DNA of 33,935 nt from Candidatus Rokuibacteriota bacterium (GTDB lineage: Bacteria > Methylomirabilota > Methylomirabilia > Rokubacteriales > CSP1-6), in contig JACQWB010000278.1 of NCBI GenBank assembly GCA_016209385.1, positions 1 through 33,935 of the forward strand. The letters run 5' to 3'. Positions 7,250 through 17,843 of the stretch are shown here, in pieces. The first letter of the stretch is position 1, and the number at the start of each line of letters is the position of its first letter. A program made the position numbers and the translations under genes. A model generated the notes under the pieces. The model was given only the letters and a program-made list of their open reading frames with translations, did not search any database and was not told where the DNA came from.

Positions 7250-10159
7250 CTACCCGTCCACGCCGTGGGGCGGCCGGCCCGGCGAGGCGTCCCGGGCCAC
7301 GGCGGCGACCTCCCCACCCGCGAGGAGCCCGCGCAGCTGCTCATCCGTATGGCGGGAGCAGAACTGGCGGAAGTTCTCTCCGTTGCTGCGATCGGCGAGG
7401 TATCTCCTCAGGAGCCGCTCGATGGCTTCGGGCACCTCGGTCGCGGAAACGCGGTAGCCCACCGGACGGGCCTTGGCCTGGTGCTTTCCCACGGCCCCGC
7501 CCACGCAGAAGTAGTAGGCGTCCGCCATCGTCCCTTCGACCTTCGTCTTCTTCCCCTCGATCCCGATGTCGGCGATCCAGTGCTGGCCGCAGCTGTTGGG
7601 GCAGCCGGTGACGTGGATCTTGACGTGCTGCTCGAAGCGCGGCATGCGTGTTTCCAGCTCCTCCACCAACCAGCGGGCGAACCCCTTGGTCTCCGTCAGT
7701 GCAAGCTTGCAGAACTCGGTGCCGGTGCAGGCGATGGTGCCCCGCCAGAACGGGGAGGCGCGAAGCCTCAACCCGGCCGTCTCGACCTCTTTCGCCAGGG
7801 CTTCCGTGTTTTGCGGGCGCACGTTGAGGATCAGCAGGTTCTGCATGGCGGTTGTGCGCAGCTCGCCGGTCCCGTAGCGGTCGGCCAGGTCGGCCACGAG
7901 CCTCATCTCGCCCGCGGTCATTCGGCCCCGGAGGACAGCGATGCCTGCATAGACGTAGCCGTCTTGCTTCTGAGGGTGGATCCCCACATGGTCGCGGTAG
8001 ACGTCGTCCGGCGGTTCCTCGGGAACGGCGGGGTCCAGGCGAAAGCCGATCCGCCGCTCCAGCTCCTCCTGAAAGCGCTCCACGGTCCAGCCGTGAGTGA
8101 GAAAGAGAAACTTGAGCCGCGCCTTCTCGCGGTCCTGCCGCAGGACATCGCTGTCGCTGAAGATCTGGGTGATGCCTTTGACGACGGGGAGGACCTCGTT
8201 CCAGTGGACGAAGACGTTCAGACGCAGGCCCAGGTGCGGGGTCGTCGAGAGCCCCCCGCCGACCCTGACCGAGAAGCCGATCTCGCCCGTCTCAGGATGC
8301 GTGATGGCGGTCATGCCGATGTCGTTGATCTCGGGGTAGGAGCACCAGACCCGGCAGCCGGTGATGGAGACCTTGTACTTGCGCGGGAGGTTGGAGAACT
8401 CGGGGTTGCCGTTCAGCATCCGGGTCGCCGCGTGGTTCAGCGGGGAAGCGTCCACGATCTCGTCGGCGTCCACGCCGGCCAGCGGGCAGCCGGTGATGTT
8501 GCGCGTGACGTCGCCGCAGGCCCCCATGGTGGTGATGCCGCACCGCCAGAGGCTCTGGAAGATCTCCGGGATCGCCTCGATCGGGACCCAGTGGAGCTGG
8601 ACATTCTGGCGGACGGTGAGGTCTCCGACCGCGCGCGCATGCTTCTCGGCGAGGTCGGCGATGCTGCGGAGCTGGTGAGAGAGGAGGAAGCCGTTCGGGA
8701 TGCGGATCCGCACCATGAAGTAGGGCACCGCCTTCCCCTCGCCGCCCTTGCCGCCGATCGCGCCGAGGCCGTCACCCTGGGTGTAGACCCCCCACGCGCG
8801 GAAATACGTGTTGAGCCACGCTGCCGGGATCGATTGATACCCCTCGCGAGCAAACCGGACGATCTCGTCGAAATGCTCCCAGGGGTTCAGCTCGCGCTTG
8901 AGGCGCTCGACCCTTTGCGCCTTCGTCTCTTTTACCGGAGCCTCTTTGACGGGCTCTGCCGGGGCGGCCGTGACCTCGGCCCCGCGCACCCAGTCTCGCA
9001 GGATCTCTGCGACCTCCGGGCGCGCAAGCTCCACGGGCAACGGCTCGCCCCGGCCCAGAAGCTCGCGCACCAGCGTCCCGCTCAAGGCCACCCGGTTCGA
9101 CGGGCCGTGAGGGCAGGTCTTCGGGGACGTGAGGGTCTCGCACCGGCGGCAGTAGAAGGTCTCGTCGAAGAAGAGGGGGACGATCCCCAGCTCCCCGGGG
9201 GCGAACTCCCGGAAGAGGTCGTCCACCGACACGCGGGACAACGCGGTCTCGATGCCCGTGTACTCGCGCCCCACGACGTAGTGGGTGCAGCCGTAGTTCT
9301 TCCGGACGAGGGCGTGGAAGAGCGTCTCCCGGGGACCGGCGTAGCGCATGGCGCCGGGAAACACCGCGAGGACGACCCGGTCCCTGGGGAAGTACTGCTC
9401 CACGAGGACCTGGTAGCAGCGGACGCGGACCTCCGAGGGAATCTCGTCGAGCTTCGACTTCCCCACCAGGGGGTGGATGAGGAGGCCGTCCAGGGGCTCG
9501 AGCGCGCACTTCTGGATGTACTCGTGGGCGCGGTGGACCGGGTGCTGGCTCTGGAATGCCACGACGGTTCGCCAGCCAAACTCACGGAACCGGGCCCGCG
9601 TCCCCGCCGGGTCCAGGCGGTAGGGCTCAAAGCCCTTCAGGGGCGGGCGGGCGATCAGGTCCACTGGTCCGGCGAGAAGCACGTTTCCGCGGGTGGTCTG
9701 ATACTCGACTCCGGGGTGGCCCGGGTCCTCGCTGCCGTACACGAGGCGGGTCTCTTCATGCCAGTCGTAGGGGAAGCGCTCTTCCACGTGGAGGATGCCG
9801 AGCAGCTCCTCCCAGGGGGCCACGAGAGCGACGTCCTCCCCTTCCTTCACGGCGTCGGCGGTTAGACGTCGAACCGCCAGAGTAATGGGGAGCGTCCAGG
9901 GTAGCCCGTTGGCCAGGCGCATCTCACCGAGGACGCTCCGGTAGTCGGCCTGGCCCATGAACCCCTCGAGCGGGCTGTAGGCGCCGACGGCCAGCAGTTC
10001 CAGGTCCGACATCGTCCGGGCGTTGAGGGCAATTGGCTTGAGGGAGGAGGCCCGCCGGCGGGCCTCCTCCAGGGCCTCCCCACGGAGGACCCGATCAACA
10101 AGCCTCCCGCCGTGGGGAGAAACCAGGTGAGTCGCAGAAACCTGGACTGTCTCGGTCAT
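7250..10159 (-). CDS. ATP sulfurylase fused to siroheme [4Fe-4S] sulfite/nitrite reductase
   Basis: A 969-residue fusion. Residues about 1-395 are a Sat-type ATP sulfurylase that makes APS from sulfate and ATP. It shows QSQHPVHRAHEY (203-214), IHPLVG, GPRETLFHALVRKNYGCTHY and a YCRRC...TCPHG zinc-type cluster. Residues about 396-415 form an Ala/Pro/Glu/Lys linker. The rest is a ferredoxin-type sulfite/nitrite reductase with the siroheme-[4Fe-4S] cysteines in CTGTEFC (811, 817) and TGCPNSCG (853, 857). The start at 10159 has GGGGGAAG upstream; an in-frame start at 10216 adds an unlikely 19 residues. Downstream genes make siroheme, its cofactor. Sulfite versus nitrite cannot be decided by eye, but fusion to Sat favours sulfite. 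The intermediate enzyme, APS reductase, is absent from the window. Confidence 0.9.
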   Translation of the reverse strand: MTETVQVSATHLVSPHGGRLVDRVLRGEALEEARRRASSLKPIALNARTMSDLELLAVGAYSPLEGFMGQADYRSVLGEMRLANGLPWTLPITLAVRRLTADAVKEGEDVALVAPWEELLGILHVEERFPYDWHEETRLVYGSEDPGHPGVEYQTTRGNVLLAGPVDLIARPPLKGFEPYRLDPAGTRARFREFGWRTVVAFQSQHPVHRAHEYIQKCALEPLDGLLIHPLVGKSKLDEIPSEVRVRCYQVLVEQYFPRDRVVLAVFPGAMRYAGPRETLFHALVRKNYGCTHYVVGREYTGIETALSRVSVDDLFREFAPGELGIVPLFFDETFYCRRCETLTSPKTCPHGPSNRVALSGTLVRELLGRGEPLPVELARPEVAEILRDWVRGAEVTAAPAEPVKEAPVKETKAQRVERLKRELNPWEHFDEIVRFAREGYQSIPAAWLNTYFRAWGVYTQGDGLGAIGGKGGEGKAVPYFMVRIRIPNGFLLSHQLRSIADLAEKHARAVGDLTVRQNVQLHWVPIEAIPEIFQSLWRCGITTMGACGDVTRNITGCPLAGVDADEIVDASPLNHAATRMLNGNPEFSNLPRKYKVSITGCRVWCSYPEINDIGMTAITHPETGEIGFSVRVGGGLSTTPHLGLRLNVFVHWNEVLPVVKGITQIFSDSDVLRQDREKARLKFLFLTHGWTVERFQEELERRIGFRLDPAVPEEPPDDVYRDHVGIHPQKQDGYVYAGIAVLRGRMTAGEMRLVADLADRYGTGELRTTAMQNLLILNVRPQNTEALAKEVETAGLRLRASPFWRGTIACTGTEFCKLALTETKGFARWLVEELETRMPRFEQHVKIHVTGCPNSCGQHWIADIGIEGKKTKVEGTMADAYYFCVGGAVGKHQAKARPVGYRVSATEVPEAIERLLRRYLADRSNGENFRQFCSRHTDEQLRGLLAGGEVAAVARDASPGRPPHGVDG

Positions 10160-10186
10160 GCTTCCCCCGCAAAGGGTGTGTCCGAA

Positions 10187-10216
10187 ATACTCACATTTGT
10201 CGATCGGTAAAGTCAA
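10187..10216 (-). promoter_or_regulatory. Candidate promoter for the sat-sir operon
   Basis: On the minus strand TTGACT (10216-10211) is followed after 17-18 nt by a weak -10 (TGAGTA/GAGTAT, 10193-10187), about 30 nt upstream of the chosen start. The stretch is clearly more AT-rich than its surroundings. Confidence 0.35.
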
Positions 10217-10345: not shown

Positions 10346-10560
10346 CTATCCCTTCACCTGAGCCCAGCGGCTCACGAACTGCCCCGCGGCCCACACGCCG
10401 ACGGCGAACGTCCCGAAGGAGAAGATTCCCAGGGAGAACACACCGACCGAGAAGACCCCGACGGAGAAGAGGCCGGCGGAGAAGACCCCCGCTGAGAAGA
10501 GGCCGGCCGACAGGACCCCCGCGCTGAACAACCCAGCGGATAGCCAGCCAGCCGACATCC
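10346..10560 (-). repeat. 15-bp tandem repeat within the pentad protein
   Basis: The pentads are also visible in DNA as imperfect 15-bp units (GAGAAGA followed by CCCCSRCC-type blocks on the plus strand) from about 10365 to 10545. Units near the middle are most alike, suggesting expansion by slippage. Confidence 0.6.
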
Positions 10561-10663
10561 GGTCCTTGGGCGCTGCATTGGGGATTGGCGGGCCGACCAG
10601 CCCGATCAGGAGCAGAACCATCAGCACTCCCCAGATGATCAGATTAGCGACGCGACGGGTCAT
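10346..10663 (-). CDS. Small membrane protein with eleven S-x-G-x-F pentapeptide repeats
   Basis: A 105-residue protein. Residues about 6-24 form a hydrophobic, probably membrane-inserted segment (LIIWGVLMVLLLIGLVG). From about residue 37 the chain is tandem pentads such as SAGLF, SAGVL, SAGVF, SVGVF, SLGIF, SFGTF, AVGVW and AAGQF, eleven in a row, ending in a short basic tail. A five-residue period with small, Gly and large hydrophobic positions resembles the pentapeptide-repeat right-handed helix, but without its usual A(D/N)LXX code, so the fold is a guess. The ATG at 10663 has AAGGAGGATC upstream, a strong start. The gene stands alone, divergent from padR. No function can be assigned. Confidence 0.75.
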   Translation of the reverse strand: MTRRVANLIIWGVLMVLLLIGLVGPPIPNAAPKDRMSAGWLSAGLFSAGVLSAGLFSAGVFSAGLFSVGVFSVGVFSLGIFSFGTFAVGVWAAGQFVSRWAQVKG

Positions 10664-10839
10664 GGCTCGATCCTCCTTCAGCACCCTGCTAGAGGCCGAA
10701 CGTGTTCCGGGTGAAGGTCCCGTGAAAGCCGAACGGCACGTGGTGGCGGAGCGAGAGCACAGCGAGCGGACGAGCCGCAAGAGCCGTGGCGATCGCCGCG
10801 ACGCTTAAGAAATGTTCGCCGATCCTGCACCCTCACCAT

Positions 10840-10864
10840 ACTCAAATATTTGTGTTTTTATACT
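10840..10864 (+). promoter_or_regulatory. padR promoter region with near-perfect operator palindrome
   Basis: ACTCAAAT|ATTTGTGT (10840-10855) matches its own complement at 7 of 8 arm positions and lies just before TATACT (10859-10864), a good -10. It is in the AT-rich island upstream of padR. PadR proteins usually repress themselves at such sites. A clear -35 is missing. Confidence 0.45.
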
Positions 10865-10898
10865 GAGACCTAAAAATCTTTAATAAGATAGTCTTAAG

Positions 10899-11459
10899 AT
10901 GTCGTTGAAACTCGCGGTCTTAGGGCTCCTGGTGGACAGCCCCCGGACCGGCTATGACCTGAAGAAGCTCTTCGACGGGTCCGTCGGCTACTTCTGGCAG
11001 GCGAAATTCCAGCAGATCTACGGCGAGCTGCGGCAGCTCGAGGGCGAAGGGCTCGTCGAGAAGCGCGACGTTCCTCAGGTCGGCAGGCCAACGCGGAAGG
11101 TCTACTCGATCACCCAGACCGGCCGCGCGGCCCTCGACGCCTGGCTCGACACCCCGTCGCCGCTGAGCCCGGTCCGCGACGAGTTCCTCGTCAAGGTGTC
11201 CTCGTTCGGAAGGCTCCCCCCCGAGCGGGCCGTCGCCCGTCTCAGAGAGCACCGCCACCTCCATGAAGAGCGCCTTGCCACGTACCGGACGATCGAGTCG
11301 CGGCTCAAGGAGGCGGGCTGGATCTCGGAGGCCGGCGTGGCCGAGCCGCTGCTCGGCGGCTACCTCACGCTCAAGCGCGGGATCGCCTACGAGGAGGACA
11401 CGATCCGCTGGTGCGACTGGGCGATCGGCCTCCTCGAGCCGCGGCTGCCCATCGGCTAG
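10899..11459 (+). CDS. PadR-family transcriptional regulator
   Basis: A 186-residue winged-helix regulator of the long PadR subtype. The N-terminal domain (residues 1-80) opens LAVLGLLVDSPRTGYDLKKL, contains FWQAKFQQIYGELRQLEGEGLV and the wing GRPTRKVYSIT, then GRAALDAWL. The C-terminal half (about 95-180) is the helical dimerisation domain (VRDEFLVKVSSFGRL, LREHRHLHEERLATYRTIE). PadR proteins repress genes for stress responses or exporters and release DNA on binding small, often phenolic, ligands. The direct target is probably its own promoter (see the palindrome at 10840-10855); neighbouring candidates are the divergent pentad protein and the SBBP gene 210 nt downstream. The ATG at 10899 is preceded by AT-rich sequence with only a weak ribosome-binding site. 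Confidence 0.9.
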   Translation: MSLKLAVLGLLVDSPRTGYDLKKLFDGSVGYFWQAKFQQIYGELRQLEGEGLVEKRDVPQVGRPTRKVYSITQTGRAALDAWLDTPSPLSPVRDEFLVKVSSFGRLPPERAVARLREHRHLHEERLATYRTIESRLKEAGWISEAGVAEPLLGGYLTLKRGIAYEEDTIRWCDWAIGLLEPRLPIG

Positions 11460-11482
11460 CGGCGAAGAGGACCTGCCGGCTC

Positions 11483-11570
11483 CGTCACCACCTGTCACCG
11501 CTGTCACCGGTTTTTGGGAGTAGGGGGGTGAAGTGAACCCTTGCCGTGAGACACGGAAGTGGGTGACAGT
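11483..11570. promoter_or_regulatory. GTCACC direct repeats with distant inverted copy upstream of the SBBP gene
   Basis: Three GTCACC units spaced 8-9 nt apart lie at about 11483-11508 (two of them as TGTCACC), and an inverted GGTGACAG lies at about 11561-11568. Regularly spaced repeats between two genes suggest a regulator-binding region, but no factor can be named. The rest of the gap 11460-11669 shows nothing else. Confidence 0.35.
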
Positions 11571-11669
11571 TCTCCAAAGGAGGACCGATGCCCGGCGAAG
11601 AGATGACTCCGACGTGAAACAGCCACCGTCCTGGACAATGGACTCAAAGACCGCGGGGAGGACGAAGCG

Positions 11670-14600
11670 ATGAAAACCTATGTGTGGCTCGTGGTCTCGG
11701 GAGCAGCCTTGCTGGGGCTGGTCGGTTATTGGAGCACCCTGACGGGCAAGGGAGCGGACAGGGTAGTGCCAGCCACCCAGCAGGAGAGCATGCCGGGCCT
11801 TTCGACGCCGACTCCCCTGCCGGCGCTGGTCACCAAGGAAGCTGTCCGCCAGCGGCTGCCGACGCTGCAGCTGCCCTTCATCGCCAATCAGGGTCAGGCG
11901 GCTGAGGAGGTCAAGTTCTACACACCGACCGCTGCCGGCACCCTCTTCGTGACCACGGCGGGGGAGCTGGTGTACGCGCTCCCGAAGCGACAGGGGGAGA
12001 AGCGAGGCCATGCGGTGGCGCTCACCGAGAAGCTGGTCGGAGGAACGGTGAGGGAGGTAACGGGCGAGGGCAAGACCCGGACCAAGGTGAACATCTTTTG
12101 GGGCAACGAGCCGGCCAAGTGGCAGCGCCACCTGCCCACCTACGACATGGTGAGTCTCGGCGAGGTGTATGCCGGGGTGGAGGTCAAGCTGCGCGCCTCG
12201 GGGAACACCGTGGAGAAGCTGTTCTATGTCAACCCTGGCGCGGACCCAGGGCAGATTCGGGTCAAGCTGGTGGGGGGGCAAGCGGTCGCGGTGACGGCGC
12301 AGGGGGAGTTGGAGGTGAGGACCGCGCCGGGCGCGATGCGATTCAGTAAGCCCGTGGCCTATCAAGAAGTGGCCGGGGGGCGGGAGTGGGTCGACGTGGC
12401 ATATGTGGTGGAGGGCGAGGCCTACGGCTTTCGGCTGGGGGCGTATGACCGGAGCAGAACGCTGGTGATCGATCCTCTCATCACCGCCACCTTCCTGGGA
12501 GGAAGTGTAAGTAGTGGTGAGATAGAGATGGAAGGTGGAGGGGATGCCGCCTTTGCGCTCGCCCTGGATAGCACAGGCCAGGTCTACGTGGCGGGGAAGA
12601 CGTCCTCCGCAAACTTTCCAGGCGTCGGTCCAGGGTCGGCGGATTCCGCCTTTGCTGGTTTGGCCGGAGCCTTTGTCGTCAAGCTGGATGCCGAGCTGAG
12701 TGAGATCCTGGCCGCCACCTTCCTGGAAGGAAGCGTGGGTTATCTGGGGATAGCCCCTCTTTCTAACGTGGAGCCCACTGCTCATCCTCCACATGCTACC
12801 CTGGCCCTCGATGGCATGGGCGGCGTCTACGTGGCGGGGACGACATCCTCCGCAAACTTTCCCGGCGTCAGTCGAGAGTCGGCCGATAACACGTTTGCTG
12901 GTTTAACCGAAGCCTTTGTCGTCAAGCTGAATGCCGATCTCAGTGCCATCTTGGCTGCCACCTTCCTGGGAGGAAGTGGAGACGAAGGTGTTTCGGCCCT
13001 CGTATTGGATGGCACAGGGAAGGTGTACGTGGCGGGGGGGACAACCTCAGCGGATTTTCCCGGAGTGGGTGCCGGGTCGGCCGATCCCACCTTTGCTGGT
13101 CCTAATGAGGCCTTTGTCGCCAAACTTGACGCCGATCTCGGGGCAGTCCGGGCCACCTTCCTGGGAGGAAGTAATCTCGACGGAGAGTTTGGTTTCGACT
13201 TTGCGTCGGCCCTCGCTCTGGATGGCAAGGGCCATGTCTACGTAGCGGGGACGACAGCCTCGGCCGACTTTCCTGGGGTCGGTTCGGGGTCGGCCGATTC
13301 CACCTTTGCTGGTCTCAGCGAAGCCTTTGTCGTCAAGCTGGATGCCGATCTCAAGACCATCCTGGCCGCCACCTTCCTGGGAGGAAGCAGTTCGGGTAAT
13401 TCGCTGGGAGGATTTGGAAGCGATACCGCTTTCGCCCTCGCTCTGGATGGCAATGGCCAGGTCTACGTGGCGGGGGCGACATCCTCGTGGGACTTTCCCG
13501 GGGTCGGGCCCGGATCGGCCGATCCCTCCTCGGATCTCCCCCTGCCCCCGAGCCCCTGCCCGCCCCCTTTAGTGTGCCCCGGGGGCCCCGCCCTCCTTGG
13601 GCCCGAAGCTTTCGAAGGCTTTATCGCCAAGCTGGATGTCAATCTCAGTGCCATCCTGGCCGCCACCTTCCTGGGAGGAAGTGGAAGTGATGCGGTTCTT
13701 GCCCTTGCCCTGGATCCCATAGGCCGCGTCTATGTGGCGGGTAGGACAAACTCATCGGTGTTTCCCGGGATCAGTCAGGGATCAATCGATCCCTTTGCTG
13801 ACTCAGAGGATGCCTTTGTCGCCAAGCTAGATCTCAATCTCAGTGCCGTCCTGGCTGCCACCTTCCTGGGAGGAAGTAGCGCTGATGCGGCTTTTGCCCT
13901 CGCCCTGGCTCCCACGGGCCACGTCTACGTGGCGGGGGCGACAGCCTCGGCGGACTTTCCTGGGGTCGGTGCCGGGTCGGCCGATCCCAGCTTTGCTATG
14001 GATACTTCTTTTTTCATCCATCCGAATATCGCCCACGAAGCCTTTGTGGCCAAGATTTTGGCCAAGGATTTGGACGGCAAGGTCGGTCCGCTGGGCGGCG
14101 AGATCGTGGATTCACTCGTCCCCATGCCACCCGGTCCTCCACCCGTGTTTCGTGTGGGCCCGGATGTGTTGCCGATGGAGGTCGGTGTCTTCATCGACGT
14201 GATTCCCGACCCCGATGTCTCGGCCCCCCCTGGGTTCCTCGGACCGGCCAGCCGCTTCGTGGACTTCACCCTCGATCCCAACCCAAGCCCGCTGCCAGCC
14301 CCGGGCGCGACGATTGTGCTGCCGCTGGCCTTTTCCCTTCCAGCCGCGACCCCGCTGCGCCTGTTCAAGTTCGCTCCCCCCAGCTCCCTGAGCGCCACGC
14401 TCGTCGTCGGCACGGTCGATGCGGGCGGCACGACCGCCACCTTCAACGGCATCACCGAGTTCTCCGTATTCGTCGCCTTTCAGGCCGCCAACCATCCTCC
14501 CGTCGCCAATGCTGGCGCGGACCAAGTGGTCTCGGCAGGCGTCGGCTGCCTGGCAACGGAGACCTTGGACGGGACGGGTTCAAGCGATGCGGATGGCGAC

Positions 14601-15107
14601 AGGCTGACGTTTACCTGGACCGGCTCATTTGGCACAGTCGGCGGCCCTACCCCAACGGTCACCTTGCCTCTGGGGATACATGTCATCACACTCACGGTCG
14701 ATGACGGCCATGGCGGGACAGACGCCGACACAGTCGCCGTGACGGTAGTCGACACGACGCCGCCGAGCATCGGCACTGTGACCGCCAACCCTAATGTCCT
14801 CTGGCCCCCCAACCACAGGATGGTGCCTATCGCCGTATCCGTATCGGTGTCGGATGTCTGCGATGCAGCACCGACCTGTCAGATCATCTCGGTCAGTAGC
14901 AGTGAGCCCGACGCTGGTCTGGGGGACGGCGACACCTCGCCGGACTGGGAGGTGACCGGGGCCCTAACGGTGAACTTGAGGGCGGAGCGCTCGGGCAAGG
15001 GGGGCGGGCGCGTATACACCATAATCGTCCAGTGCACCGACACCTCGGGCAATAGCGTCATGAAAAGCGTGACGGCGACTGCACCACACGATCAGCGACG
15101 CAAGTGA
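11670..15107 (+). CDS. SBBP-repeat beta-propeller surface protein with PKD domain
   Basis: A 1145-residue exported protein. Residues 1-25 form a signal or anchor segment. Residues about 50-270 form a conserved beta-rich N-terminal region (PFIANQGQ, VNIFWGNEPAKWQRHLPTYD, RTLVIDPLI). Then come seven or more SBBP repeats, each with TATFLGGS, ALALD..G.VYVAG.T.S..FPGV and DAFVAKLD (about 270-800). A PKD domain follows (PVANAGADQVV ... GSSDADGDRLTFTWT, about 945-1030), and a final beta-domain reads PPNHRMVPI. Such proteins occur on the surfaces of environmental bacteria and probably bind carbohydrate or protein; no catalytic site is visible. The ATG at 11670 follows GGGGAGGACG. Codon use is less GC-rich in the repeats than in neighbours, and the repeats are very alike at DNA level. 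Confidence 0.85.
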   Translation: MKTYVWLVVSGAALLGLVGYWSTLTGKGADRVVPATQQESMPGLSTPTPLPALVTKEAVRQRLPTLQLPFIANQGQAAEEVKFYTPTAAGTLFVTTAGELVYALPKRQGEKRGHAVALTEKLVGGTVREVTGEGKTRTKVNIFWGNEPAKWQRHLPTYDMVSLGEVYAGVEVKLRASGNTVEKLFYVNPGADPGQIRVKLVGGQAVAVTAQGELEVRTAPGAMRFSKPVAYQEVAGGREWVDVAYVVEGEAYGFRLGAYDRSRTLVIDPLITATFLGGSVSSGEIEMEGGGDAAFALALDSTGQVYVAGKTSSANFPGVGPGSADSAFAGLAGAFVVKLDAELSEILAATFLEGSVGYLGIAPLSNVEPTAHPPHATLALDGMGGVYVAGTTSSANFPGVSRESADNTFAGLTEAFVVKLNADLSAILAATFLGGSGDEGVSALVLDGTGKVYVAGGTTSADFPGVGAGSADPTFAGPNEAFVAKLDADLGAVRATFLGGSNLDGEFGFDFASALALDGKGHVYVAGTTASADFPGVGSGSADSTFAGLSEAFVVKLDADLKTILAATFLGGSSSGNSLGGFGSDTAFALALDGNGQVYVAGATSSWDFPGVGPGSADPSSDLPLPPSPCPPPLVCPGGPALLGPEAFEGFIAKLDVNLSAILAATFLGGSGSDAVLALALDPIGRVYVAGRTNSSVFPGISQGSIDPFADSEDAFVAKLDLNLSAVLAATFLGGSSADAAFALALAPTGHVYVAGATASADFPGVGAGSADPSFAMDTSFFIHPNIAHEAFVAKILAKDLDGKVGPLGGEIVDSLVPMPPGPPPVFRVGPDVLPMEVGVFIDVIPDPDVSAPPGFLGPASRFVDFTLDPNPSPLPAPGATIVLPLAFSLPAATPLRLFKFAPPSSLSATLVVGTVDAGGTTATFNGITEFSVFVAFQAANHPPVANAGADQVVSAGVGCLATETLDGTGSSDADGDRLTFTWTGSFGTVGGPTPTVTLPLGIHVITLTVDDGHGGTDADTVAVTVVDTTPPSIGTVTANPNVLWPPNHRMVPIAVSVSVSDVCDAAPTCQIISVSSSEPDAGLGDGDTSPDWEVTGALTVNLRAERSGKGGGRVYTIIVQCTDTSGNSVMKSVTATAPHDQRRK
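12480..13880 (+). repeat. Coding repeats with internal TTCCTGGGAGGAA palindrome
   Basis: The core GCCACCTTCCTGGGAGGAAG recurs, with one copy altered to GGAAGGAAG, at about 12486, 12714, 12957, 13150, 13369, 13661 and 13856. Units are thus roughly 190-290 bp apart. Each copy holds the inverted repeat TTCCT-GGG-AGGAA. This is near-identity at DNA level beyond what protein constraint needs. Confidence 0.7.
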
Positions 15108-15109
15108 CC

Positions 15110-15241
15110 ATGGAAAATGTTGGCTTTAGACCGCTGTACATTGATCTCTCCGAGCGGCCAAGTGTCGAGAGCGGGGAGATCTCCGAAGGCGTCGAGTTCT
15201 GGAGGGAGGTTCGACGCAGGAGGAAGGCCAGGGCCCGCTGA
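15110..15241 (+). pseudogene. Small frame ending in a duplicated antitoxin C-terminus
   Basis: A 43-residue frame whose last 14 residues (WREVRRRRKARAR and the stop overlap) are those of the ribbon-helix-helix antitoxin at 16674-16934. Positions 15200-15252 match 16893-16945 with one mismatch in 53 bp, including the antitoxin stop and the first codons (MARY) of the toxin. Upstream of the match the two sequences differ, and after MARY the toxin frame is lost. This is a copied fragment, probably left by recombination, and not a working antitoxin, although expression of the 43-residue peptide cannot be excluded. Confidence 0.55.
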
Positions 15242-15252
15242 TGGCCCGCTAC
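15200..15252 (+). repeat. 53-bp direct repeat, copy 1
   Basis: This matches copy 2 at 16893-16945 with one mismatch (A here, C there, at unit position 31). It spans the antitoxin/toxin junction in copy 2 but has no intact module here. Its right end coincides with the break in the carotenoid-oxygenase remnant. Confidence 0.85.
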
Positions 15253-15422
15253 ATGACGGCGCTCAGCATGCCGTCGCCGTCGAACCAGTGGCCGAAGGGC
15301 TGGCCGCCTACGTCATTCTGAGCCGGGCCGTTCCGGTAGAGCGTGCCGGTAAGGCGGTCGGGGAATCGCCCCTCGATCTCCTCGATCGGGTAGTCCCACT
15401 CCAAATATCGCGACTCTTGCAA
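15249..15422 (-). pseudogene. Truncated carotenoid oxygenase (RPE65 family) N-terminus
   Basis: Read on the minus strand, 15422-15249 encodes about 57 residues with RYLEWDYPIEEIEGRFPDRL, then GTLYRNGP and GHWFDGDGMLSAVM, ending at a TAG. LxGTLYRNGP and HWFDGDGM are hallmark N-terminal motifs of carotenoid cleavage oxygenases, non-haem iron enzymes of about 450-500 residues. Everything after the first 60 residues, including the four iron-binding histidines, is missing, and the stop codon lies inside the 53-bp duplicated sequence. The frame is the same as that of the upstream GTPase stop, and no good start codon is visible (TTG at 15422). The gene was cut by the rearrangement that placed the repeat here. 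Confidence 0.7.
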
Positions 15423-15449
15423 GCTCCGTTGTCCGTCGCGGCGCCGGTG

Positions 15450-16475
15450 TCACGCGTGAAGCTCGACCACATCCCCGTCCGCTACCGGGTGCTCGCGCCC
15501 AACCTGTTGTCCGTCAAACCCGGCGTTGCCCCAGACGCGGGCGTACTTGAGCGAGCGCGCGAGCTCCTTGTGCACGAGCCGCGCCACGTCTTCCACGGTC
15601 TGACCGCGGCGCAGGGTGAACGGCCGGTCCCGAGCAGGCGAGCGGCCTGGCGCCTTGGTGTAGACGCGCACAATACCCAGGTGGCTGAAGAGCCAGGGGC
15701 CGATCGCGCCCAGGCCCCGCCCGGTGGTCGCCGACACGGCCAGGGCAGGATAGCGAAGCCCGGAGAGCTCTAGGAACGCCCGGAGCTCGGCCTCCACGTC
15801 GGCAATGCGGTCCACCTTGTTGACAAGGAGCAGCGCGGGAAGCCGGAGGGCGAAGGGATCCTCGTCGCCCTCGGCTCCTGCTCCGGCGGACTCGTTGGCC
15901 GCCTCCCAGCGCTCGGTGAGCGTCACTCGCCGCTCGCGCAGGACGGCGTGCACCGCCTCGACCTGCTCCACGCACGCCGAGTCGGCGAGGTCCACGACCA
16001 GGAGAGCCGCGTCCGCCGTCCCGAGCGTGCTCGCCAGCCACGGGAGCGGGTGCTCGGGCGAGACGGCTGGAAGGTCCACGAGCTGGAAACAGATGTCCTC
16101 GTGGGGCATCATCCCCGGCCCGGGATACTTGGTCGTGAACGGATACGCCGCGGCCTGGGCCCCGGAGCCCGTGAGCCGCGTATGCAGCGACGACTTGCCC
16201 GCGTTCGGCGGGCCGAGCAACGCGATCTGCGCCGCGCCCTCGGGGCCGATCACCAGCGCCGGGCCGCCCCGGGCCCCGCCCTTCTTGGGCCGCTCGAGCT
16301 CCTCGGACAGCTCCTTGATCCGCCGCTTGAGGTCGCCCTGGAGATGGTCCGTCCCCTTGTGCTTGGGGATCACGCGAAGCATCTCCCGGAGCCACTCGAG
16401 CCGTTCCTTCGGGTCGCGTGCCTTACGGAACGCGGCCTCCGCGGCCTTGTACTCGGGGGTCAGGTTGGCAGGCAT
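15450..16475 (-). CDS. DRG/Obg-type GTPase with TGS domain
   Basis: A 341-residue GTPase. Residues about 1-75 are helical and charged (KELSEELERPKKG). The G-domain has G1 GPPNAGKSS (about 88-96), a G3 reading DLPAV where DxPG is usual, and G4 NKVD. The C-terminal about 70 residues form a TGS domain (IVRVYTKAPG, FTLRRGQTVEDVARLVHKEL, GREHPVADGDVVELH). This is the plan of DRG proteins, common in archaea and eukaryotes and present in scattered bacteria, with links to ribosomes and translation. The start at 16475 is the first ATG and gives a normal length. It stands alone. A 50-residue acidic insert (ESAGAGAEGDED) lies between G3 and G4. Confidence 0.88.
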   Translation of the reverse strand: MPANLTPEYKAAEAAFRKARDPKERLEWLREMLRVIPKHKGTDHLQGDLKRRIKELSEELERPKKGGARGGPALVIGPEGAAQIALLGPPNAGKSSLHTRLTGSGAQAAAYPFTTKYPGPGMMPHEDICFQLVDLPAVSPEHPLPWLASTLGTADAALLVVDLADSACVEQVEAVHAVLRERRVTLTERWEAANESAGAGAEGDEDPFALRLPALLLVNKVDRIADVEAELRAFLELSGLRYPALAVSATTGRGLGAIGPWLFSHLGIVRVYTKAPGRSPARDRPFTLRRGQTVEDVARLVHKELARSLKYARVWGNAGFDGQQVGREHPVADGDVVELHA

Positions 16476-16673: not shown

Positions 16674-16934
16674 ATGCCAACGAAGCCCACGACCAAACGG
16701 GTTCCTGTGGCTCTAGAAGCCCCCCTATATGAGACGCTGGCGACGGTGGCCGATCGCGATGGGGTCTCCATGTCGCAGAAGGCTCGCGACCTGATCCACC
16801 ACGCCCTTGAGATCGAGGAGGACGAAGCCTTCGAGACACTCGTCCGGGGCCGGATGCGCCGGGGCGGGAAGTTCATTCCGCACGAAGCGTTGTGGAGGGA
16901 GGTTCGACGCAGGAGGAAGGCCCGGGCCCGCTGA
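16674..16934 (+). CDS. Ribbon-helix-helix antitoxin
   Basis: An 86-residue antitoxin. The N-terminal ribbon-helix-helix reads KRVPVALEAPLYETLATVAD then GVSMSQKARDLIHHALE, a typical beta-helix-helix DNA-binding dimer unit. The acidic/basic C-terminal tail (EEDEAFETLVRGRM ... WREVRRRRKARAR) would wrap the toxin. The ATG at 16674 has GGCAGGAGG upstream. Its stop overlaps the toxin ATG (TGATG at 16932-16936), the coupling normal for these pairs. It should repress the promoter at 16598-16626. Because the toxin is frameshifted, this antitoxin may now be an orphan. Confidence 0.85.
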   Translation: MPTKPTTKRVPVALEAPLYETLATVADRDGVSMSQKARDLIHHALEIEEDEAFETLVRGRMRRGGKFIPHEALWREVRRRRKARAR

Positions 16935-16945
16935 TGGCCCGCTAC
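16893..16945 (+). repeat. 53-bp direct repeat, copy 2 (source copy)
   Basis: This is the counterpart of 15200-15252. Here the sequence makes sense as the end of the antitoxin and the start of the toxin, so this is the likely origin of the duplication. Confidence 0.85.
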
Positions 16946-17226
16946 GAGGTCAATTACTTCGACGAGGTTCTTGAGGACGACATCCCCGATATCCCGGCGA
17001 ACGTCCAGGACCGGATCGAGCGGGCGATTGAGGAGAGGCTCAAGACGGCCCCCGAGAAGTACGGCGAGCGGCTCCGAAAGTCCCTGATCGGCCTCTGGAA
17101 GATCCGGTCGGGGATTATCGCATCATCTACACGATCGACGACAAGACCCGGTCTGTGAGCGTGTGGGCCATCGGCCACCGGCGGCTCGTCTATGACCTGA
17201 TGGGGCGGCGGTGGCTACGCAGGTAG
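16934..17226 (+). pseudogene. RelE/ParE-family toxin with a -1 frameshift
   Basis: The toxin frame starts MARYEVNYFDEVLEDDIPDI and continues IERAIEERLKTAPEKYGERL, KSLIGLWKIRSG, a normal RelE-type N-terminal two-thirds. After the G run at about 17111-17114 the family continuation (DYRIIYTIDD, VWAIGHRR, VYDLMGRRWLRR) is found in another frame and ends at 17226. One extra G (five instead of four) would restore a 98-residue RelE. As written, translation ends at 17158 with an unrelated tail. The missing part contains the catalytic Arg/His region of RelE toxins, so the product should be inactive. A homopolymer sequencing or assembly error is the main alternative. Confidence 0.8.
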
Positions 17227-17332: not shown

Positions 17333-17623
17333 ATGTTGGAGTGGGACGCGCGGAAGGCCGCGGTCAACCGCACCAAGCACGGGGTCTCGTTTGAAGAGGC
17401 GGCGACCGTGTTCGGCGATCCGGATGCCCTGGACGGCCCAGATCTGCGTCACTCCGAGAAGGAGTCACGATTCCTGCGACTGGGCCGCGCGGCGACGGGC
17501 CCCGTGCTCATCGTGGCCTATACCGTTAGGAGGCGAGACGATGGCGAAAGTATCCGCATCATCAGCGCGCGCCGGGCGAGCCGGAAAGAGCGGGCGGCCT
17601 ATGCGGCGGCGTCCCGGGATTGA
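17333..17623 (+). CDS. brnT: BrnT-family ribonuclease toxin
   Basis: A 96-residue toxin of the BrnT family (RelE-like fold ribonuclease that inhibits translation). Hallmarks are EWDARKAAVNRTKHGVSFEE, the VFGDP turn, a RFLRLGRAATGPVLIVAYT strand pair and IRIISARRASRKERAAY near the end. Length and motif spacing are normal and the frame is intact. No clear ribosome-binding site lies before the ATG at 17333, in line with leaderless expression from the -10 at 17322. The BrnA antitoxin overlaps its 3' end; the toxin-first order is the usual one for brnTA. Confidence 0.88.
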   Translation: MLEWDARKAAVNRTKHGVSFEEAATVFGDPDALDGPDLRHSEKESRFLRLGRAATGPVLIVAYTVRRRDDGESIRIISARRASRKERAAYAAASRD

Positions 17624-17843
17624 CTTCTCCGACATCCCGGAGACTTCCCCCGCCCAGCTCCGAGCGATGCGCCGCGTGGGGCGGCCCCCCTTGGGGGCTG
17701 AGGCCAGGCGACTGATCGCCATTCGGATCGATCCCCAGGTCCTCGACGCCGTGCGGCGGGAGGCCAAGCGGCGAGGGTTGGGCTACCAGTCCCTCATCAA
17801 CGATGTGCTCACGAGGCATGTCGCACGGGAGCGGAGCGCCTAA
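17541..17843 (+). CDS. brnA: BrnA-family antitoxin
   Basis: A 100-residue antitoxin. The central IDFSDIPETSPAQLRAMRRV segment and the C-terminal ribbon-helix-helix (RLIAIRIDPQVLDAVRREAK then LGYQSLINDVLTRHV) match BrnA, which binds BrnT and represses the operon. The ATG at 17541 is chosen because AGGAGG sits 8 nt upstream and because homologues have some 15-25 residues before the FSDIPE motif. An alternative ATG at 17601 would give 80 residues and a shorter overlap. The chosen start overlaps brnT by 83 nt. The AGGAGG may instead be chance Arg-Arg codons of brnT. Confidence 0.82.
   Translation: MAKVSASSARAGRAGKSGRPMRRRPGIDFSDIPETSPAQLRAMRRVGRPPLGAEARRLIAIRIDPQVLDAVRREAKRRGLGYQSLINDVLTRHVARERSA

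Follow-up and report, generated by a model that had tools for sequence, protein, structure and literature searches.

Short, variable segments that carry few repeats and lie between conserved bacterial genes have been described from strain comparisons, and a large share of them has been ascribed to illegitimate recombination (Touzain et al. 2010, PMC2884548). The locus examined here lies in a stretch of 33,935 nucleotides from a Candidatus Rokuibacteriota bacterium (hereafter ‘the window’, meaning the whole stretch of DNA that was analysed). Like the described segments, it is made up of short pieces, foreign or rearranged, that lie between conserved genes, with gene ends truncated and flanking repeats mostly lacking. 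Unlike those segments, it is known from one genome only, and it holds three pieces in a row. Two other described systems have contributed to it, namely the RPE65/carotenoid cleavage oxygenase family (PF03055), both ends of one member of which are recognizable in the window, and the modules in which a ribbon-helix-helix antitoxin is paired with a ParE/RelE-type toxin. We consider it likely that positions 15108-15449 constitute a non-functional scar, in which three internal gene pieces were joined directly between two intact genes through illegitimate end-joining. The pieces are a fragment of a DUF2283 gene (about 60 bp), a copied antitoxin/toxin junction (59 bp) and the N-terminal part of a carotenoid oxygenase (150-200 bp). 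To the left, a gene for an SBBP-repeat/PKD protein of 1145 amino acids (11670-15107, plus strand) lies between this enzyme fragment and a second one, and the right border is formed by an intact gene for a TGS-domain GTPase (15450-16475, minus strand).

The antitoxin/toxin junction had been described in the initial annotation as a 53-bp piece copied from the module nearby, and the count given there holds: 15200-15252 agrees with 16893-16945 at 52 of 53 positions, with the single mismatch (A/C) at 15230. A repeat search widened the match to 55 of 57 (15196-15252 versus 16889-16945), and the full copied piece comprises 59 bp (15194-15252, plus strand). Of these, 56 agree with the in-window module (16887-16945), while all 59 agree with a second module on another contig, C36 (C36:17662-17720), which is the best match anywhere in the genome (310 contigs, 95% complete). 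As C36 matches without a single difference, the module next to the scar is not the nearest source of the piece, contrary to what had been proposed. This identity, coupled with the 3 of 59 positions that differ from the in-window module, indicates that the piece left the C36 lineage after the two modules had separated. The repeat is more than chance, given that an exact 59-mer would be expected about 2e-25 times. A genome-wide search for further copies returned three places only, which are the scar itself, the in-window module and C36. No match was obtained when plasmids were searched with the scar sequence or viral contigs with its 21-bp core. A 79% match in another genome (G010:C240) to 15212-15267 was rejected as chance, as it contains indels and none of its translated frames carries the antitoxin tail.

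The copied piece holds the last 15 codons of the antitoxin, its stop codon and the first four codons of the toxin, and thus corresponds to the overlap of the gene pair (TGATG). Unlike complete modules of this type, a piece with 15 antitoxin and four toxin codons is unable to function as one, and neither gene is complete within its 59 bp, as a type II toxin-antitoxin system would require. Nor did we find support for the earlier suggestion that the start of the toxin gene is mobile. The piece is mostly antitoxin tail and includes only 12 nt of toxin coding sequence (ATG GCC CGC TAC), it is present in only three places, and neither terminal repeats nor element-like ends were found at 15194-15252.

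The in-window module comprises the antitoxin gene (16674-16934, plus strand), a paralogue of the source of the copied piece, and the toxin gene (16934-17226, plus strand), whose frame is broken relative to C36 by the loss of 1 bp near 17108. An intact toxin frame therefore does not follow the antitoxin within 16674-17226, and the toxin looks inactivated, although the base may have been missed in sequencing or assembly. Over 555 bp the two full modules share 93% identity, and the copy at C36 keeps its natural neighbours, with antitoxin sequence upstream and toxin sequence downstream of the shared 59 bp. The C36 toxin (L002 1192-1512) departs after DDKTR from the end of the window copy, SVSVWAIGHRRLVYDLMGRR, its C-terminus being replaced by unrelated sequence. 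Since both modules are decaying, a functional role for the 59-bp piece is unlikely. Directly after the in-window module, at 17333-17843, Pfam matches identify a BrnT toxin gene followed by a BrnA-type antitoxin gene.

On the far side of the copied piece lies the N-terminal part of the carotenoid oxygenase (15253-15449, minus strand), where homology spans about 15402 to 15253. Read on the minus strand, the frame 15422-15249 matches positions 7-56 of PF03055 (at 15255-15401) with an E-value of 7e-15, above the curated cut-off, and an HMM built from 79 homologues aligns its columns 55-103 to 15253-15400 (E 9.8e-23). The initial annotation had placed the end of the copied piece, at 15252, beside the point where this enzyme frame is cut, and the two coincide exactly. 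On the minus strand the junction reads GCC GTC AT|G TAG, and because the stop codon TAG (15251-15249) lies inside the copied piece, the junction itself creates the stop. A recombination junction at 15252/15253, with the enzyme frame truncated by the copied piece, is therefore borne out. The room between the stop codon of the GTPase gene and the first possible enzyme start is nine codons, fewer than the apparent leader of the homologues, so the 5' leader may be missing as well and the remnant may be cut at both ends.

A second remnant, absent from the initial annotation, carries the C-terminal end of the enzyme with its stop codon (10691-10790, minus strand). It matches positions 443-468 of PF03055 at 10710-10790 (E 1.3e-4 when searched as a single protein) and columns 476-505 of the homologue HMM at 10692-10790 (E 3.4e-8). 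The two remnants share a strand, follow each other in the expected order, do not overlap in the family profile and lie 4.46 kb apart. The HMM of 79 homologues finds no further enzyme piece in the window, and no other piece was found in the whole genome. About 370 middle codons are missing, and the central part of the PF03055 profile, which covers the complete catalytic propeller, is not represented. Judged by its sequence, the carotenoid oxygenase is a remnant or pseudogene rather than a functional member of its family, and the scar appears as part of a wrecked carotenoid-oxygenase locus. That a single event accounted for both the copied piece and the loss of the enzyme, as first proposed, does not agree with these findings. 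Since the C-terminal end adjoins a second breakpoint at a distance of 4.46 kb and the middle is gone, the loss of the enzyme must have involved at least two breakpoints. The first reading is thus corrected as to where the piece came from and how far the event extends.

To the left of the copied junction is a piece that the initial annotation did not mention. Positions 15134-15193 (plus strand) encode LYIDLSERPSVESGEISEGV, an internal portion of a DUF2283 gene with neither its start nor its end, which is 75-80% identical over 20 amino acids to DUF2283-like proteins of 76-77 amino acids from three genomes of the same class. The fragment falls short of formal DUF2283 membership, as PF10049 scores it at 14 bits (E 0.06) against a cut-off of 23 and the full domain is absent. 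No DUF2283 donor was found in the assembled genome. With 15193 as the last homologous position and 15194 as the first of the copied piece, the two abut directly and, by their joining in frame, form an open frame of 43 amino acids (15110-15241, plus strand). The ATG of this frame is supplied by the 24 bp that follow the stop codon of the SBBP-repeat gene (15110-15133), a stretch that has no match elsewhere in its own genome and at which related DUF2283 proteins differ. In 94 other genomes from the phylum, nothing corresponds to the 43-amino-acid frame. The possibility that a conserved short gene occupies 15110-15241, which would have undermined the original interpretation, is rejected on the basis of these genomes. 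The hybrid frame is most likely a by-product of the joining. However, an in-frame join of this kind has a one-in-three chance of arising, and we count this against the scar explanation.

In 98 relatives none of the scar is present; the GTPase gene is conserved up to its stop codon, and homology ceases at or just past that codon. No relative with the arrangement that preceded the rearrangement was found, and any account of how many events took place, and in what order, is therefore tentative. When an intact enzyme was sought in genomes of the same family, carotenoid oxygenases were present in only two (G008 and G023), with N-termini that are 36-51% identical, and neither genome belongs to those with a nucleotide-level match at the GTPase locus. 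Across 84,980 genomes, enzyme homologues reach at most 71% identity over 41 amino acids, and there is therefore no close donor. Of the homologues, the cyanobacterial L083 matches the C-terminal remnant best, and it also matches the N-terminal one well.

The character of the joins bears on how the pieces were brought together. The C36 and window sequences diverge at once past 15252 and before 15194, and only two of the eight bases preceding 15194 agree with C36, which is the level expected by chance; thus, neither join shows evidence of shared bases. The stretches 10740-10900 and 15190-15330 have no direct or inverted repeat of at least 7 bp in common, and neither terminal inverted repeats nor a target-site duplication (repeats of at least 7 bp were tested) mark the locus as a transposon or insertion sequence. 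Because there are no terminal repeats and no homology common to the junctions, illegitimate end-joining is the best-supported mechanism. Breaks would have been rejoined by illegitimate recombination, through Ku-type or other end-joining, and the rejoining would have captured or copied 59 bp of a C36-type antitoxin/toxin module. The genome encodes a Ku gene, which is split over two contig ends.

Two true rivals to this explanation exist. The assembly is fragmented into 310 contigs, and an exact repeat such as the 59-bp piece is where false joins typically arise, so the scar could be proposed to be an assembly chimera. However, the C36 copy has both of its natural flanks, and therefore each unusual flank, DUF2283 on one side and enzyme on the other, must abut a real copy, whereas a false join cannot supply both. 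A further sign that the contig is genuine is that it carries the other end of the enzyme as well, on the same strand, and we consider a chimera very unlikely. Even less probable, to the point that we give it hardly any weight, is that the 43-amino-acid frame encodes a functional hybrid peptide, such as an orphan antitoxin tail capable of binding a related toxin. The C-termini of ribbon-helix-helix antitoxins generally contact the toxin, and the frame is open, in phase and retains the 15 C-terminal residues of the antitoxin. Against such a role, the peptide is absent elsewhere in the phylum set and lacks the ribbon-helix-helix DNA-binding part, the frame of the neighbouring toxin is broken, and the C36 toxin is without its natural end. 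The short frames in the scar should not be annotated as genes.

Within the scar explanation itself, two histories can be distinguished as sub-cases, and the gene for a PadR-type regulator that adjoins the C-terminal enzyme remnant (10899-11459, plus strand; PadR and Vir_act_alpha_C domains) bears on both. PadR homologues that are 35-39% identical to it are located divergently, just upstream of the enzyme, in 3 of 80 carotenoid-oxygenase loci (L086, L087 and L121). Because of this placement, sequence comparison suggests, without proving, that the PadR gene of the window was part of the old enzyme locus. In one history, which is possible and which we hold tentatively, the enzyme was once divergent from PadR at about 10850 and was mostly deleted, and a 150-200-bp N-terminal piece was displaced by 4.4 kb. 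The orientation and position of PadR are then as in the three loci, and the nine codons of room upstream would fit an enzyme piece that, as with its two neighbours, has lost both ends. This history requires an extra displacement step, however, and a small PadR tree, in which the position of the window protein is poorly resolved, does not group it with the three enzyme-linked ones. In the other history, which we regard as doubtful, a segment of about 4.45 kb (approximately 10800-15252, comprising PadR, the SBBP-repeat gene and, at the right-hand end, the debris) was inserted into the oxygenase gene, the middle of which was lost, and 15252/15253 marks the right edge of the insert. It is exactly this segment that the two enzyme ends enclose, on one strand and in the expected order, and the matches of both to the cyanobacterial homologue point the same way. 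The resemblance to enzyme-linked PadR genes suggests instead that PadR was already in the enzyme locus, repeats of the insertion type are lacking, and neither of the two genes between the remnants encodes a transposase or integrase. It is also conceivable, but improbable, that one break was repaired in a single event with several short filler pieces copied from other parts of the genome, of which the 59-bp piece would be a templated insertion from C36. Its perfect identity to C36, despite the 7% difference between the modules, and the blunt joins speak for such a repair, but a stepwise history fits both observations too. If a single templated repair did occur, the locus would exemplify multi-piece filler insertion occurring naturally in a bacterium; failing that, it represents routine decay. 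Overall, the scar is ordinary genome decay with a moderately unusual detail.

Several minor observations accompany these results. The three loci with a divergent PadR gene belong to two gammaproteobacterial bins and one labelled Pedobacter, and the combination of PadR and carotenoid oxygenase is a possible conserved regulator pairing; a literature search on PadR with carotenoid oxygenases returned nothing relevant. Just downstream of the C-terminal enzyme remnant, 10346-10663 encodes a small protein with repeats of the GLFSAGVFS type (GLTT repeat) and a hydrophobic N-terminal segment. Farther along, a minus-strand frame of 988 amino acids (7250-10216) combines PUA_2 and ATP-sulfurylase domains in fusion with NIR_SIR sulfite/nitrite reductase domains.
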